From Geomonas azotofigens (lineage in GTDB: Bacteria; Desulfobacterota; Desulfuromonadia; Geobacterales; Geobacteraceae), in contig NZ_JAHLME010000005.1 in NCBI RefSeq assembly GCF_018919395.1, positions 186,001-250,000 of the forward strand: a DNA stretch of 64,000 bases. The letters are read 5' to 3'. Position numbers and translations under genes: made by a program. Below, in pieces: positions 7,022 to 31,339 of this stretch (position 1 is its first letter; each line of letters opens with the position of its first letter). Under the pieces are notes generated by a model. It saw only the letters and a program-made list of their open reading frames with translations. It ran no database searches and had not been told where the DNA came from.

Positions 7022-9059
7022 GGTCTCCCCCGTCAGGGGCGGTCGGCGCCGACGCCCATTCCCGCCCCTCTAGCTTCCTCTCCGCTCCGTAGCGCACCAG
7101 GTCCGGCCTCAGCCGCCTCACCCCCCTGTAGGAGGAGCAGGCGAGGAACTGCCGGTGCAGGATCTCTGTGGAGATGATCCCCATCAGGGCCATGTTGGCG
7201 AATTCACTCACCGTCTCAGGAGGAGCCCCGATCACCCGCCGGTACAGGCGCGCCACCTTGTCCGGGTCGAAGTACCCGCTCGCCTTCAGGCTCCGCGGGG
7301 ACAGCAGGTCGTCCACGTAATCGGCCGGCGCGGCCGCGGTGAACAGCGCGCTCACCGGCGCCCGATAGGGATGCTTGCCCCGGCTGGCGATCCGCTGCGG
7401 CAGGATGTCGCGGCAGGCCCTGCGCAGGAAATATTTTTCCTGCAGCCCCCTCATCTTCCAGCGTGCCGGCAGGCGGAAGGCGAAGTCGATGACCCGGTAG
7501 TCCAGGAAGGGGTGGCGCATCTCCACCGAGTGCGCCATGGCGACCCGGTCCCCCTGCGAGGAGAGGAGGAAGCCGGCCAGGAAGAGCTCGATCTCCAGCA
7601 CCTGCGCCCGGCAGAAGAGGTCCCGCCCGGCGAAACTCTCCGGCAGCCACTGGGCGAGCTCCTCGCGCGGGTCGTACCCGGCGAGGCAGCCGCGGTACTC
7701 CGGGGACAGAAAGACCAGGTTCCTGGCGCCTCCCCCCCAGCGCACGGCGTGGGAGAAGAAGGGGTCCCTCAGTTGTTCCGGGGAGACTGCGAAGAACTCC
7801 TGCAAGAAGGAACGGCCGCGCGAGGGATTGTTGAAGATGTAGGGGTAGAGACGCTCCAGGAGCCGGGGCCGCCGGGGGGAGTCGGGCCGTCGCCCCCAGT
7901 AGTCCCTGACCTTGGCCTCTTTGAAGATGTGGTACCCCCCCAGCATCTCGTCGGCCCCCTCCCCGGAGAGGACCACCTTGTACCCCTCCGAATGCACCAG
8001 TTGCGAAAGGAGGAACATCGGGACCGGGGAGCTGCGCAGGGTGGCCTGTTCGCAGTGCCACACCGTTTCCGGCAACAGCCGCCTGATCTGCTGGTCTTGC
8101 ACCAGCACGCGCCGGTGGTCCGTCCCCAGGTGCCGCACCATCTCCTCCTGGGCGACGCTCTCGTCATAGGCCGCATCGGCGAAGCCTAAGGAGAAGGTCT
8201 TCAGACGGCTTTGGCGGTGGCGCGCGATCAGGGTGGCGATGATCGATGAATCGAGTCCACCGCTCAGGTAGGCCCCGACCGGAACATCCGCCCGCAGCCG
8301 CAGCCGGACGGCGTCCTCGAGAAGCTCAGCGAACGCCTCCGCCGCCTCGGGCAGGTCGAGCCCGCACTGCTCCTCGGCGGGATAGGCGGGGATGCGCCAG
8401 TAGGACCTGGGGCGGGAACGCTGCCCCTTGACCAACAGGTAGTGACCAGGGGGGAGCGCCTCAACGCCGGCAAAAAAGGTTCTCCCCGGCAGGGTGCTCC
8501 AGAAGACGAAGAGCTGCCCGATCGCCTCAGGGTCGAGCTCCCTGCTGCCGGTCACGGCGAGGATGGCCTTGATCTCGGAGGCGAACAGCAGTTGCCCCCC
8601 GGCGCTCCAGGTGTAGTAGAGCGGCCGCACGCCGACGCGGTCCCGGGCCAGGAAGAGTTCTCCCTTGGCGCTGTCCCAGATGGCGAGGGCGAACTGCCCG
8701 TTGATCCTCTCCAGGCAGGCGGGGCCGTACTCCTCGTACAGGTGCAGCAGGACCTCGGTGTCGGTCTGCGTGCTGAAGCGGTGCCCGCGGGCCAGCAGTT
8801 CCTGCTTCAGTTCCAGGTAGTTGTAGGCCTCGCCGTTGTACACGATCCAGAGTTCGCCGGTTTCGTTGCAGATTGGCTGGATGCCGCCGTCGATACCGAT
8901 GATGCTCAGGCGCAGGTGCCCCAGGGCGGCCCGATGGTCGAGGTAGACGCCGGACTGGTCCGGCCCCCGGTAACGCAACGGCGAGATCATGCTCACCATC
9001 TGCTCAAGGCTGGGAGGCTCCTGGTCAACGACGTTGATTATCCCTGCGATACCGCACAC
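6999..9059 (-). CDS. Asparagine synthetase-like glutamine amidotransferase
   Basis: A 686-residue class II glutamine amidotransferase: nucleophile Cys2 right after the initiator (MCGIAGI), RGPDQSG and YNGEAYNY in the glutaminase domain (about 1-200), then the synthetase domain with PP-loop YLSGGLDSS (about 265-273) and GEGADEMLGGY. The start is GTG at 9059 with GGGAGGTAA upstream, which places Cys at position 2 as the mechanism requires. Length exceeds classical AsnB (about 550) and fits the amidotransferases of polysaccharide and exosortase-A clusters. First gene of the five-gene operon; likely amide former or ammonia source for the following ligase/NadE-like steps (inference). Confidence 0.88.
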
Positions 9060-9074
9060 TTGTTACCTCCCGCA

Positions 9075-9102
9075 GCGCCGGCGTCGGGCCTTTGGCCGGC
9101 GC
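9075..9102 (-). other. GC-rich hairpin in the leader of the amidotransferase operon
   Basis: GCGCCGGC (9075-9082) can pair with GCCGGCGC (9095-9102), a perfect 8-bp stem with a 12-base loop, ending 16 bases before the GTG start on the minus strand. It sits between the promoter and the ribosome binding site and could affect translation initiation. No T-run follows, so it is not a standard terminator. Confidence 0.4.
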
Positions 9103-9113
9103 AAAACCATTAA

Positions 9114-9141
9114 ACTATACCAATGTAGTTTTTGGAAGCAA
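9114..9141 (-). promoter_or_regulatory. Sigma-70-type promoter of the asnB-like operon
   Basis: On the minus strand TTGCTT (9141-9136), 16-base spacer, TATAGT (9119-9114). Position about 55 bases upstream of the GTG start. The spacer length matches the other promoters recognised in this window. Confidence 0.55.
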
Positions 9142-9271
9142 ACGCGCGGTCTCGTTTTTGGCCGCAGGAGGGGAAGGTTAACGTAGGGGAGCTGGAACTT
9201 TCATTAGTGTGACAGCCGTCACCAGCGCCAAGCCGCGAAGCTGGTAGTGTCTCAAGAAACAGAAGCTGCAG

Positions 9272-9360
9272 GTAGATATCGATAATACTAAAACTTCCGC
9301 GAGGAAGTGACGGAAAGCCTAAGGGTCTCACGCAGACAGCCGGGTTGCCGAAATATCCAC
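9272..9360 (+). promoter_or_regulatory. GEMM-I riboswitch aptamer, probable 3',3'-cGAMP (GEMM-Ib) type
   Basis: The segment has the architecture of the GEMM-I cyclic-dinucleotide aptamer: P1 from 9272-9279 with 9353-9360 (7 of 8 pairs), J1/2 with CGATAATACTAAAA, P2 CTTCC-GCGA-GGAAG (9294-9307, GNRA tetraloop), the core ACGGAAAGCC (9310-9319), P3 GGGTCT/AGAC with its loop, and the conserved AGCCGGGTTGCCGAAATAT receptor strand. The J1/2 and core bases match the Geobacter cGAMP riboswitch as I remember it, including A where c-di-GMP-I switches have the ligand-selecting G. The ligand assignment is therefore inference; the fold assignment is strong. It precedes a terminator, a 42-codon ORF and the FN3/malectin gene. 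Confidence 0.88.
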
Positions 9361-9387
9361 GGGATACCATAGGCACCGGCTTTTTTT
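9339..9387 (+). terminator. Riboswitch expression-platform terminator
   Basis: GCCGGGTTGCC (9339-9349) can pair with GGCACCGGC (9372-9380), followed by seven T residues (9381-9387). The 5' arm uses the last strand of the aptamer, so terminator and ligand-bound aptamer are mutually exclusive; ligand binding should favour read-through (ON switch). Confidence 0.8.
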
Positions 9388-9433
9388 GCGTCCGGAGTCC
9401 ACTGCAGCTAAGACCAAAGGGAAAGGAGGCCAG

Positions 9434-9562
9434 ATGAGCACCCCAACCACGGCGGCCAAAAGCAAAGCATGGCGCCAGTCAGGACCCCGGCGGGCGGGCA
9501 GCACCTGCCCCGGGGTTAACCGCCTGCCGAACCGGCACAGAGAACAGGAGGAAGCAGCCTAA
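9434..9562 (+). CDS. Small ORF (42 aa) between riboswitch and FN3 gene
   Basis: An ATG at 9434 follows a near-perfect ribosome binding site (AAAGGAGG, 9423-9430). It opens a 42-codon frame ending in TAA at 9560-9562, whose last A is the first base of the FN3-gene ATG (TAATG). The product is Arg/Lys/Pro-rich with a single Cys, no signal peptide and no membrane segment; I recognise no family. The RBS and stop-start overlap suggest translational coupling to the secreted protein downstream, either as a leader peptide or as a small effector. A chance ORF in a GC-rich leader remains possible. Confidence 0.5.
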   Translation: MSTPTTAAKSKAWRQSGPRRAGSTCPGVNRLPNRHREQEEAA

Positions 9563-11091
9563 TGTCAAAATGCAGTACAGTACCGAGCCACACCGTCCTT
9601 GCCAGGATGGCCCTCATCGCCTTGCTGGTTTTCACAGCGATGGCGACCACGACGCTGAGAGCGACGCCTGCGGCGGCAGCCCAGGCCAGCATCGCCTGGA
9701 GCGCCCCGACCGACAGCACTGGGGTGACCGGCTACAAGGTTCACATCGGGGGAACCTCCGGCAACTACTCGCAGCATGTCGACGTCGGCAGCACCACGAG
9801 CTACTCGGCCAGCAGCCTGACCGACGGCAGCACCTACTATTTCGCCGTCACCGCCTACAACGCGGCCGGGAGCGAGAGCGCCTACTCCAACGAGATCAGC
9901 AGGAGCTTCCCCGCCCTGCCCACCACCTACACCATCACGGCGACGGCGGGTGCCGGCGGCACCATCACCGCCTTGAACAACACCAAGGTCAGCACGGCAA
10001 CCAGCGGCAGTTCCACCATCACCAGCGTCACGGTCACCTCCGGCGCCAGCCAGTCCTTCAGCATCGCTCCGGCCAGCGGCTACAAGGTCGCCGGCGTCAC
10101 CGTGGACGGCGTCTCAGTGGGCGCGTTGACCTCCTACAGCTTCAGCAACGTGACCGTCAACCACACCATCTCGGCCACTTTCGCCGTGAACAGCTACAGC
10201 ATCACCGCGAGCGCCGGCACCGGCGGCAGCATCACCCCGTCCGGGACCACCGCGGTTGCCGCCAACGGGAGCCAGAGCTACACCATTACCCCCGCCACCG
10301 GCTACAAGATCGCCGGGGTAACGGTCGACGGCACCTCGGTGGGCGCGGTGGGGAGCTACACCTTCAACCTGGTCAGCGCGAACCACACCATCGCCGCGAG
10401 TTTCGCGCTCAACAGCTACACCATCACGGCGACCGCCGGTACCGGCGGCACCATAACCCCGTTAGGGAACGCCACCGTCGCGAGCGGCGGCAGCCAAGGC
10501 TACACGGTAGCTGCGACCAGCGGCTACAAGATCGCCGACGTCAAGGTGGACGGCGTGTCCAAGGGAGCCATCTCCTCCTACACCTTCAGCGGCGTGACCG
10601 CCAACCACACCATCGCGGCAAGCTTCACCGTGCAAAGCGGCATCACGGTCTTCGCCACCAACGCGGGGGGTGCGGCCTTCACCGGCGCCGACGGGACCGC
10701 CTACAAGGCAGACAGCTACTATTCCGGCGGGACCGCCAAGACCATCACCGCGACCATAGCCGGCACCACCGACGACGTCCTGTACCAGAGCTACCGCTAC
10801 GGCAGCACCACGGCCGGCAGCGTCATGTCCTACAATATCCCGGTAGCCAACGGCAACTACTCCGTCGTCCTCAAATTCGCGGACAACGTGGGGACCGGCC
10901 AGAGGGTATTCGACGTGAAGATGGAAGGGACCACCGTTTTGTCCAGCTTTGACATCTATGCCAAGGCTGGCAATAATACGGCTTACGATGTGACCATACC
11001 GGTCAGCGTGGCGGACGGCGTGCTGAACATAGGGTTCGTGACCAAGATCAGCAGCCCCAAGATCAACGGTATCGTGGTGAAAACCAGGTAA
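9562..11091 (+). CDS. Secreted FN3 / InlB-type repeat / malectin-like protein
   Basis: A 509-residue exported protein. Residues 1-40 form a signal peptide ending in APAAAA-type small residues. Residues 41-118 are one fibronectin type III domain (WSAPTDSTGVTGYKV, YYFAVTAYN). Three tandem repeats of about 73-88 residues follow (122-209, 211-283, 285-357), each with YTITATAG-GG-I, GYKIAGVTVDG, and NHTIAASF; these look like the divergent InlB-B/bacterial repeat. Residues about 361-509 resemble a malectin-type carbohydrate-binding domain (GGAAFTGADGTAY, YSVVLKFAD, FDVKMEG). GAGGAAGC precedes the ATG. It lies downstream of the cyclic-dinucleotide riboswitch and is likely a ligand-induced surface or matrix adhesin (inference). 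Confidence 0.85.
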   Translation: MSKCSTVPSHTVLARMALIALLVFTAMATTTLRATPAAAAQASIAWSAPTDSTGVTGYKVHIGGTSGNYSQHVDVGSTTSYSASSLTDGSTYYFAVTAYNAAGSESAYSNEISRSFPALPTTYTITATAGAGGTITALNNTKVSTATSGSSTITSVTVTSGASQSFSIAPASGYKVAGVTVDGVSVGALTSYSFSNVTVNHTISATFAVNSYSITASAGTGGSITPSGTTAVAANGSQSYTITPATGYKIAGVTVDGTSVGAVGSYTFNLVSANHTIAASFALNSYTITATAGTGGTITPLGNATVASGGSQGYTVAATSGYKIADVKVDGVSKGAISSYTFSGVTANHTIAASFTVQSGITVFATNAGGAAFTGADGTAYKADSYYSGGTAKTITATIAGTTDDVLYQSYRYGSTTAGSVMSYNIPVANGNYSVVLKFADNVGTGQRVFDVKMEGTTVLSSFDIYAKAGNNTAYDVTIPVSVADGVLNIGFVTKISSPKINGIVVKTR

Positions 11092-11110: not shown

Positions 11111-12718
11111 ATGACGTCAAAAGTGACCTTATTAGGCAAGAAGATAGCAGTAACGGCAGCAGTCATTCTCTGTTTCAGCGCCACCATGGCCTCCGCGGCG
11201 ACCTACTACGTCGACTCCGCTGCGGGCTCCGACAGTAACGCCGGCAGCAGCTCCGCGCCCTGGAAGACGGTGACCAAGGTGAACGGCATGTCCTTTTACC
11301 CCGGCGACCAGATTCTCTTCAAGCGCGGGGGGAGCTGGGATACCCTGCTCAAGCCGTCGTCCGGCAGCAGCGGTTCCCCGGTAAGCTACGGGGCCTACGG
11401 CACCGGCAACAAACCGGTGATCCGCGGCTTCTACGCTTCCAGCAAGTCGTACGTGACCGCCCAGGACATCGCTTTCCGCAACGGCAGCACCGACAGCCCG
11501 GCGACCATCCTGACCTCGCATCACATCGTGCTCAGGAACTGCGACATCATCGCCGACAGCTCCAACAGCACCTGGGCCGCGCTGTACATGCTGCTGAACT
11601 CGCACCACAACGAGATCAGCGGCTGCAACATCGCGCACCTGACCACCAGCAGGCAGTCCGACGCGGTGAACCTGAGAAGGAACGCCAACTACAACATCAT
11701 CAGGAACAACACCATCGGCGCCGCCACCCACTATTCGCTTTCGCTGGAAGGGTTCGACACCACCTACCCGACCTACAGCTGCAACTACAACCTGATCCAG
11801 GGGAACACCATCTACAACCCGCAGGGCGCCACCATGGGGCTGCAGTCCGGGTCGAGCAACAACGTGGTGGAGAAGAACACCGTCTACGGCGGCAAGAGCA
11901 CGAGCTACGATGCCAACCTCCCCCGTACCTTCAAGGCGGTGTCGCAGAACAACATCATCCGCTACAACATCCTGCGGGACAACACGACCAGCACGTCCAG
12001 CGGCTTGGGCATGGAGGTCTACGCCTACAACACGGACCCACCCAACGTGGCCATCGGCAACCGGGTCTACAACAACACGATCACCAACATCACTAAGTAC
12101 CCGATCGTGATCGCGACCAACGGCGACAGCGGGGCGACCGCCTACAACAACTATTTCAAGAACAACGCGGTCTACAACAACCTCGACAGCTACCAGCTCT
12201 GGATCCAGAAGAACAGCGTCATCTATGACAACTTCTTCTTCAACAACCTGTTCTTCAAGACCGGCACCAGCACCATCATGAACGTACAGGGGAAATACGG
12301 CACGGTCGCCGACATCCAGGCTGCCGACCCCACCCACTTCAAGGGTAACCTGCAGACCGCGCCGATGCTCGACTCCACTTACACGCCGCAGGTCGGCTCC
12401 CCCTGCATCGATGCCGGCGACTTCCTGACCAAGGTCACCAGCGCCAGCGGCACCGGCTCGGTGATCACCGTCGCCGATGACGGCTACTTCTCGGACGGCA
12501 TGGGGCTGACCGCGGGCGATACCATCACGGTGGGGAGCTACACCGCCACCATCACGGCGATCAACCGCTCCACGCACCAGATCACCCTGAACCAGAGCGT
12601 GACCTTCAAGACCGGCGACGCGGTCAGCATGCCCTACAAGGGGACCAAGCCGGACATCGGGGCCGTCGAGTATCAGCAGGTCGTGGCCCAACCGCTCAAC
12701 CTGCAGTTCACCAACTAG
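11111..12718 (+). CDS. Secreted right-handed parallel beta-helix protein
   Basis: A 535-residue protein with a signal peptide (about 1-29, ending ASA) and the start YYVDSAAGSDSNAG-x-S, the N-terminal cap common to secreted pectate-lyase-fold proteins. The middle is made of repeated short strands rich in Asn (NNTIGAATHYSLS, NLIQGNTIY, NNVVEKNTVYGG), the Asn-ladder pattern of right-handed parallel beta-helices. A small beta-rich C-terminal part (about 420-520) ends with KPDIGAVEY. AAGGAAGGTAT precedes the ATG; the gap from the FN3 gene is 19 bases, so both are probably under the same riboswitch. It could bind or cleave a polysaccharide; no catalytic residues can be assigned by eye. Confidence 0.85.
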   Translation: MTSKVTLLGKKIAVTAAVILCFSATMASAATYYVDSAAGSDSNAGSSSAPWKTVTKVNGMSFYPGDQILFKRGGSWDTLLKPSSGSSGSPVSYGAYGTGNKPVIRGFYASSKSYVTAQDIAFRNGSTDSPATILTSHHIVLRNCDIIADSSNSTWAALYMLLNSHHNEISGCNIAHLTTSRQSDAVNLRRNANYNIIRNNTIGAATHYSLSLEGFDTTYPTYSCNYNLIQGNTIYNPQGATMGLQSGSSNNVVEKNTVYGGKSTSYDANLPRTFKAVSQNNIIRYNILRDNTTSTSSGLGMEVYAYNTDPPNVAIGNRVYNNTITNITKYPIVIATNGDSGATAYNNYFKNNAVYNNLDSYQLWIQKNSVIYDNFFFNNLFFKTGTSTIMNVQGKYGTVADIQAADPTHFKGNLQTAPMLDSTYTPQVGSPCIDAGDFLTKVTSASGTGSVITVADDGYFSDGMGLTAGDTITVGSYTATITAINRSTHQITLNQSVTFKTGDAVSMPYKGTKPDIGAVEYQQVVAQPLNLQFTN

Positions 12719-30268: not shown

Positions 30269-31339
30269 TTAGTAGGCCCCCCTGCACCTCAGTACCACGA
30301 AAGGTGTCAGGAGGATTATTTTCACGTCTAACATGACGCTCCAACTCCGGAGGTAGTGCAGGTCAAGCCTCACCATCTCGTCAAAGGTCGTCGAACTTCT
30401 GCCACTTACCTGCCAAGCCCCCGTGATGCCAGGCTTTTTGCCGATGAGCCGGTTTCTTTGCCAACCACTGTAGTTTTCAACCTCGTAATGGATGGGCGGC
30501 CTCGGCCCGACCAGTGACATCTCTCCTTTGAGCACATTAAACAACTGCGGCAACTCGTCCAGGCTGTAGGCCCTGAGCAGCTTCCCGATTGCGGTAACGC
30601 GGGGATCGCTGGTGATCTTATAGACGGTGTTTTCACCTTCGCCGATGGCCCCCTCGATCAACTGCTTCACGAATTGTCTGTGTATCTGATCATCGTTGTT
30701 GACGTGCATACTTCTGAACTTGAACAGTTTGAATTTGGCACCATTCAGTCCGTATCTTTCCTGGACAAACAAAACAGGTCCCTCGGAAGTCAGCTTTATG
30801 ATCAGGGGGACGACCATGAATATCGGGGACAGCAGCAGCAGTGCTGTCACGGCGCCCACGAGGTCGATGACCCGCTTGACCACCACCCCCGTCGAATCGC
30901 CGACCCCGCTTGAGGTGATGTCTGGATAAAAGATCATGTCAAAGGCGTCAGCATCGCCGCCGCTTTCCGGGTAGAACCTAAAACTGATGCCGATACGCGC
31001 TGCAAGGTCCTTCCCCTGTTTCGCCTCCAGCATCTCTTTTACTTTCATTGCGACAACCCGCTTGGCATCGTGAACCTTGTCTGCGGGGATTTCGGTCAAA
31101 ATCACCCCCACTGTATCTTCGCCGAGAACCCCGCAGATATCGGTATCCCTCAGGCAACCACGCAACGCCTCCCCCAGGGAAAGGAGCACGTCTTGTCGTT
31201 CAACCTCAGCCACACAGCCAGCATCAAGCACCATAACCAGCAGTGGCTTGCCTGCCCTTTCAGCACGCCTTCGTTCCTGTACCAGTTTTTGCTGAAAGTT
31301 CGCCTCCTGATAGAAACCGTGGACGAACCCCTCCGCCAT
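30269..31339 (-). CDS. Initiating sugar-phosphate transferase with degenerate GGDEF-like N-terminal domain
   Basis: A 356-residue protein of unusual make-up. Residues about 14-145 resemble a GGDEF fold: FQQKLVQERRRAER, PLLVMVLDAG, LRDTDICGVLGEDTVGVIL where GGDEF should be, and ARIGISFRFYP; the signature reads LGEDT, so no cyclase activity is expected. Residues about 150-356 are a bacterial sugar transferase (PF02397 type): one hydrophobic helix, FKLFKFRSM, SLDELPQL, MSLVGPRPP, PGITGAWQVSGRS. It would transfer hexose-1-phosphate to undecaprenyl phosphate, starting each repeat unit. ATG at 31339 follows AGAAGGGT; an in-frame start at 31402 is less likely. First gene of the operon driven from 31485-31512. 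Confidence 0.85.
   Translation of the reverse strand: MAEGFVHGFYQEANFQQKLVQERRRAERAGKPLLVMVLDAGCVAEVERQDVLLSLGEALRGCLRDTDICGVLGEDTVGVILTEIPADKVHDAKRVVAMKVKEMLEAKQGKDLAARIGISFRFYPESGGDADAFDMIFYPDITSSGVGDSTGVVVKRVIDLVGAVTALLLLSPIFMVVPLIIKLTSEGPVLFVQERYGLNGAKFKLFKFRSMHVNNDDQIHRQFVKQLIEGAIGEGENTVYKITSDPRVTAIGKLLRAYSLDELPQLFNVLKGEMSLVGPRPPIHYEVENYSGWQRNRLIGKKPGITGAWQVSGRSSTTFDEMVRLDLHYLRSWSVMLDVKIILLTPFVVLRCRGAY

Follow-up and report, generated by a model that had tools for sequence, protein, structure and literature searches.

The RNA element and its aptamer

Which signal governs the expression of a secreted, malectin domain-containing protein in Geomonas azotofigens, and through what kind of RNA? 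The question arises from a 64,000-nucleotide stretch of the genome (hereafter the window), in which an initial annotation had proposed a cyclic-dinucleotide riboswitch upstream of this gene. Our main reading, which we hold with a probability of about 90%, is that the element is a GEMM-Ib riboswitch that would sense 3',3'-cGAMP and act as a transcriptional ON switch; we infer both the ligand and the direction of switching in silico.

A cmscan of the whole window returned a full-length match to RF01051 (GEMM-I) at 9277-9352 of the forward strand (51.0 bits against a gathering cut-off of 35 bits, E 5e-7, model positions 1-87 of 87), which was the sole Rfam match above its gathering score in the 64 kb, and a purpose-built model, R1, scored the same aptamer at 89 bits. 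The covariance-model check asked for by the initial annotation is thus significant. Helix P1 can be read directly (GAUAU 9275-9279 with AUAUC 9353-9357) and extends the aptamer to 9275-9357 (+); P2 (9293-9298/9303-9308) is capped by a GCGA loop of the GNRA type at 9299-9302, and P1b consists of C9288-G9313 and U9289-G9312. The aptamer is therefore complete, with a GNRA-capped P2, as had been proposed, and the extent given earlier, 9272-9387, fits the aptamer together with the terminator described below.

Over 37 aptamers from this and related genomes, 92.2% of the cells of the structure are paired, with changes on both sides in 9 of 17 pairs and weaker pairing in the upper P3 helix (81.5%). 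The covariation score is 0.408 versus 0.139 in shuffles, none of 500 of which reached the observed value, and P1b and P3 are supported by covariation. An identical aptamer occurs in two further genomes of the same genus despite differing flanks. When folded alone, the aptamer stretch is no better than its shuffles (z -0.98), which is usual where the ligand holds the pocket. A chance fold was rejected on the RF01051 score, the identity in three genomes and the covariation. The subfamilies RF03167 and RF03168 were also rejected for the window RNA, which they do not match; the G-type RNAs of relatives (see below) do match them.

Ligand class

The base expected to select the ligand is A9287 (+), at model position 11, which we take to be nucleotide 20 of Vc2. 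According to two reports (PMC6456294, PMC9481103), G at this position specifies c-di-GMP and A specifies cGAMP; we call the corresponding aptamers G-type and A-type. Among the 19 GEMM-I matches listed for the 4.97 Mb genome, 17 lie above the cut-off; of these, 15 carry A at position 11 and two (L001 and L002) carry G. Thirteen of the 15 A copies, the window's included, have the window core, so that the A reported earlier recurs in 12 sister copies. Two A copies, L004 (G000:C14:18777-18851) and L014 (G000:C1:1155695-1155772), are hybrids that combine A at position 11 with the G-C P1b of the G-type. The c-di-GMP-I class (RF01051; Vc2, Cd1) shares its fold and covariance model with the window RNA, whereas it has G at position 11 and a G-C/C-G P1b in place of A and C-G/U-G.

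Single-base rules for the ligand are imperfect, since an OmcST riboswitch responds to both ligands (PMC6456294) and a change of the corresponding base made little difference in Cd1 (PMC9262584). The window aptamer might accordingly be promiscuous, or prefer c-di-GMP despite A9287, in which case the operon would respond to c-di-GMP or to the two signals added together. Promiscuous riboswitches have been published (PMC6456294), and G-type aptamers were found at FN3 genes in those six named genomes outside Geobacteraceae in which any was found (L156, L161, L162, L166, L175 and L176, all with a G-type core; that of L161 is printed one base out of register). Against this, the entire core of the window aptamer is A-type, beyond the single base: the first P1b pair, in the 37 aptamers of both types, is C-G in 27, G-C in 10 and never unpaired. 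We consider a promiscuous or c-di-GMP-preferring aptamer unlikely.

A cGAMP riboswitch also calls for a host able to make the ligand, by a Hypr GGDEF protein with Ser in place of the canonical Asp. A GGDEF search of the genome gave 32 matches, 30 of which were returned as loci. One, L054, carries the Ser (GHLIGS, with GGDEY), and among solved structures it matches 6d9m best (E 7.5e-67), with Ser aligned to Ser; judging by its title, that entry is the GacA domain of Geobacter metallireducens. L253, one of two weak GGDEF matches, has Ser with GGDDF. The same combination of Ser and GGDDF has been reported for a second synthase, GSU1937 (PMC8835794). Judged by sequence only, L054 and L253 are thus candidate cGAMP synthases that appear to be like both published Geobacter enzymes. 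Two other GGDEF proteins were observed: L058:1357-2517 (-) has Thr (GHLAGT) where Asp is canonical and Hypr enzymes have Ser, and the window itself contains a weak match at 30980-31306 (-; 29 bits) within a 377-aa frame, which is probably degenerate.

With A9287, 12 copies of the same core, synthase-like genes and the ON-switch layout described below, the cGAMP-type riboswitch of the initial annotation is well supported in silico. The element shares the A base, the mutual exclusion of aptamer and terminator, tandem copies elsewhere in the genome and synthase-like genes with the GEMM-Ib riboswitches of Geobacter (Gs1761/pgcA, Gm0970, pilM), whose targets are pgcA, omcAHG and pilM; the window differs in that its target is an FN3/malectin surface protein and its ligand is predicted. 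As a GEMM-Ib member it is ordinary for these bacteria, and it would extend the known cGAMP regulon in an expected manner.

Terminator and predicted switching

The intrinsic terminator spans 9338-9387 (+), and, as noted earlier, its 5' arm (9338-9349) coincides with the final strand of the aptamer; the 3' arm lies at 9372-9381, and the run of seven T at 9381-9387. Folded alone, it reaches -20.1 kcal/mol (z -3.15), a value equaled by 2 of 200 shuffles. A simple terminator scan of the window, which accepts short loops and unbroken stems only, therefore misses it and reports three sites, all on the opposite strand, where 3.5 are expected by chance. Because bases 9340, 9341 and 9343 are paired both in the terminator and in P3 of the aptamer, the two structures are mutually exclusive. 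For 9265-9388, the fold that contains the terminator has -36.6 kcal/mol and that with the aptamer pairs enforced -28.2 kcal/mol, so the terminator should win without ligand, and the element reads as an ON switch. ON mechanisms have been published for the pilM riboswitch (PMC9262584) and for pgcA (PMC6456294), both with a similar layout of aptamer and terminator. A helix formed by the last strand, followed by a T run, was found in all 13 genome copies with the window core; two of the four other own copies also pass, L004 only by way of an A-T helix that we do not trust.

In the mechanism that we propose, the strand shared by aptamer and terminator (9338-9349) would pair with 9372-9381 in the absence of ligand, and transcription would stop within the T run at 9381-9387. 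Once cGAMP is bound, P1 and P3 would retain this strand, and the polymerase would read through into the FN3/malectin gene and its downstream neighbor. The cGAMP would be supplied by the GacA-like Hypr GGDEF protein and the GGDDF/Ser homolog of the same genome.

The T run is separated from the FN3 gene by 174 nt, which hold a possible, uncertain leader frame of 42 codons at 9434-9562 (+) with a ribosome site and a stop codon overlapping the FN3 start (TAATG). The frame has the same length in L122 and L123 of the same genus, with drifting sequence, and 41 codons in L140 and L141; it was not seen in several other leaders examined. The presence of this frame would be compatible with a defunct riboswitch whose gene is now set by the short leader frame and the 174 nt behind the T run, and the FN3 gene of one relative (L283) is indeed preceded by a decayed G-type aptamer. 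The window aptamer, by contrast, is identical in three genomes though their flanks differ, and its terminator is kept, which makes loss of function very improbable. We thus retain a working cGAMP-type ON switch as the preferred reading.

The genes behind the riboswitch

The first gene downstream (9562-11091, +) encodes a 509-aa protein with a signal-like start followed by FN3, InlB-type repeat and malectin domains (Pfam Malectin, E 2.3e-28; fn3, E 4.3e-8; Flg_new_2, E 9.9e-7). The second (11111-12718, +) encodes a 535-aa protein, also with a signal-like start, and the two are presumed to form an operon from the 19-base gap between them. The initial annotation had described the controlled genes as a secreted FN3/repeat/malectin protein and a beta-helix protein. 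Pfam bears out the former; the latter label is weak. No Pfam family was found for the second product at E 0.01, its NCBIfam and PDB sequence matches (to pectate lyase PelN, lacto-N-biosidase and chains of FN3 proteins) are weak, and its single-sequence fold was unusable (mean pLDDT 33); a beta-helix is a possible fold. Close relatives of this product were found in G002 and G005 only, where they also lie behind an FN3 gene.

Eight neighboring genes on the other strand include one with a PGA_cap and one with a Polysacc_synt family, as well as an asparagine synthase and an AMP-binding enzyme upstream; for four of the eight, Pfam gave no family at E 1e-4. We infer a role of the controlled genes in the matrix or in adhesion. 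Nelson and colleagues reportedly named adhesion genes in 2015, so there is a precedent for the control of adhesion-type genes.

Genes behind the sister copies

The genes scanned behind other A-type copies of the genome include those for a multihaem MtrC-like cytochrome with nine CXXCH motifs (L009), FN3/Big_7 and He_PIG proteins (L015 and L003), a DUF4382 protein (L012), a Ysc84 protein (L017), a histidine kinase (L013) and an MshEN/receiver protein (L010; L028:7090-8001, -). MshEN is a c-di-GMP-binding domain in other proteins. A further A-type copy, L006 (L024:7991-8066, -), lies 190 nt ahead of the start of a PAS-GGDEF-EAL gene (L024:6017-7801, -) with the canonical Asp, and A-type aptamers were also found at 10 of 12 orthologs of this gene (at least 56% identity) whose upstream regions were read in the same genus. 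The conservation of an A-type RNA at this position suggests that cGAMP may steer c-di-GMP turnover in the genus.

Association of the FN3 gene family with GEMM-I RNAs

Two overlapping sets of FN3 genes were analyzed. The first was drawn from the protein matches listed in 39 genomes (own included), from which 26 reaching the N-terminal FN3 domain were picked by eye outside the own genome. Among the matches listed, a sense RF01051 aptamer lies upstream in 19 of these 26 loci (15 with A-type only, two with G-type only and two with both); one further gene follows another FN3 gene behind a shared leader, and no aptamer was found in the remaining six, also with model R1. The second set came from a domain search of 48 Geobacteraceae genomes (own included), which gave at least 35 matches, 30 of them returned as loci. 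Aptamers were found at 24 of these 30: 15 have A-type only, one G-type only (near a contig start), seven A-type followed by G-type, and one three A-type copies plus a decayed G-type. L299, truncated at its 5' end, was typed by its P1b strand instead of position 11. Six of the 30 returned loci, two of them from Geomonas (L302 and L303), have no aptamer. The chance of a GEMM-I RNA within 1.5 kb on one strand is about 0.3%, as calculated by hand from 17 RNAs per 5 Mb. The FN3 gene family is thus tied to GEMM-I RNAs (24 of 30 loci, own included). Among the matches listed, three of the four FN3 genes of the own genome (the window gene, C12:329179 and C12:330640) stand directly behind A-type copies, and the FN3 copies typed in Geomonas are A-type.

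A pattern search gave 79 named loci, 12 of which hold 16 clear matches and one a 13-bit match. G030, which is labelled as belonging to a different family within the order, has two types of FN3 leader, one with an A-type aptamer (L136) and one with a G-type (L124). By script, 19 of 25 FN3-linked A-type copies have both the last-strand helix and a T run. An earlier short T run caused L136 and two L233 copies to be scored as failing, and their own T run is visible by eye. Three A-type FN3 leaders of the same genus (L129:523-599, L130:524-600 and L131:918-994) have no T run within the next 80 bases, which suggests another expression platform. In Geomonas limicola and Geomonas silvestris, G-type aptamers lie near long InlB-repeat proteins (L177:2224-2317 and L181:2208-2303), and related repeat proteins within Geomonas may thus follow c-di-GMP.

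Leaders with both aptamer types in relatives

Intact leaders in which one or two A-type aptamers are followed by one G-type aptamer were found before the FN3 gene in nine genomes (G019, G020, G039, G042, G046, G047, G057, G061 and an Oryzomonas MAG, L159), at L281:2386-2672, L278:1934-2209, L286:1934-2217, L290:744-1318, L292:831-1168, L293:1920-2494, L294:1101-1349, L138:642-1211 and L159:3595-3833; L185 carries the same stretch as G061. G019, G020, G039 and G042 came from an RF01051 scan of nine genomes of nine genera, in which tandems were picked by eye among the matches listed, and the other five came from the FN3 searches and are biased toward FN3 genes. Since frame picking was crude and the gene downstream of L235, L238, L241, L243 and L244 was left unassigned, we do not claim that mixed tandems are exclusive to FN3 genes. 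Two other multi-aptamer leaders were seen: L240:1029-1689 (-; G023) has four A-type aptamers in one leader, three of them consecutive before a frame resembling a secreted protein, and the FN3 leader L283:606-1320 has three A-type aptamers and then the decayed G-type (29 bits, C at position 11), which we read as a c-di-GMP gate in the course of being lost.

The A-type aptamers of the mixed leaders carry terminators. In leaders with a G-type aptamer, the ribosome site can pair with the strand directly behind that aptamer, and this pairing varies in sequence (AGUACCUC/GAGGUACU, ACUCCUUC/GGAAGGAGU, AGUGCCUC/GAGGCACU and ACAACAUCC/GGGAUGUUGU). Fewer than 10 of 500 shuffles match the observed helix in 7 of the 14 leaders scored, 55 of 500 do so in L245, and at least 128 of 500 in L124, L125, L156, L161, L162 and L185, of which the L185 site was misread by the script and the correct one was read by eye. 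A ribosome site was not found in one further G-type leader.

The mixed arrangement is probably a two-signal leader, of which the window would have the cGAMP half only. Within 8600-9700 of the window, searched with filters off, there is no second aptamer (the next best match scores 4.4 bits), and no G-type aptamer downstream of the A-type one, so the window leader does not belong to the mixed tandems. Tandem riboswitch gates are known (PMC9481103), and the FN3 leaders of relatives likewise stack riboswitches, whereas that of the window has a single aptamer. In our judgment, the chance is about even that the leader in the window represents a two-signal RNA device in reduced form: FN3 genes of Geobacteraceae other than Geomonas would combine one or more cGAMP gates on transcription with a c-di-GMP gate on translation, exerted through the ribosome-site hairpin, and the protein would be made for one combination of the signals only; Geomonas would have kept the cGAMP gate and lost the c-di-GMP gate, a loss to which the distribution of aptamer types points.

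In our literature search, no title or opening of an abstract named a pair of cGAMP and c-di-GMP riboswitches; the class-defining papers of 2015 lie outside its scope and may mention one. The two-input gate table of a riboswitch survey (PMC9481103) has no such pair. Because the 347 c-di-GMP-I doublets of that survey are tallied as a single class, they may include mixed pairs.

Implications for a possible two-signal control

It has been reported that cGAMP and c-di-GMP serve distinct contact-dependent lifestyles in Geobacter, on metal particles and on electrodes, respectively (PMC6456294). The interest of the locus beyond an ordinary GEMM-Ib riboswitch lies in the tie of the FN3 family to riboswitches and in the mixed leaders of relatives. 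A single FN3 family is preceded solely by cGAMP-type RNAs in the typed Geomonas copies, by the two types one after the other in nine other genomes, and by c-di-GMP-type RNAs in the six more distant named genomes that yielded an aptamer. Should the predicted ligands be correct, the splitting and merging of two signals would be testable on a single gene family.
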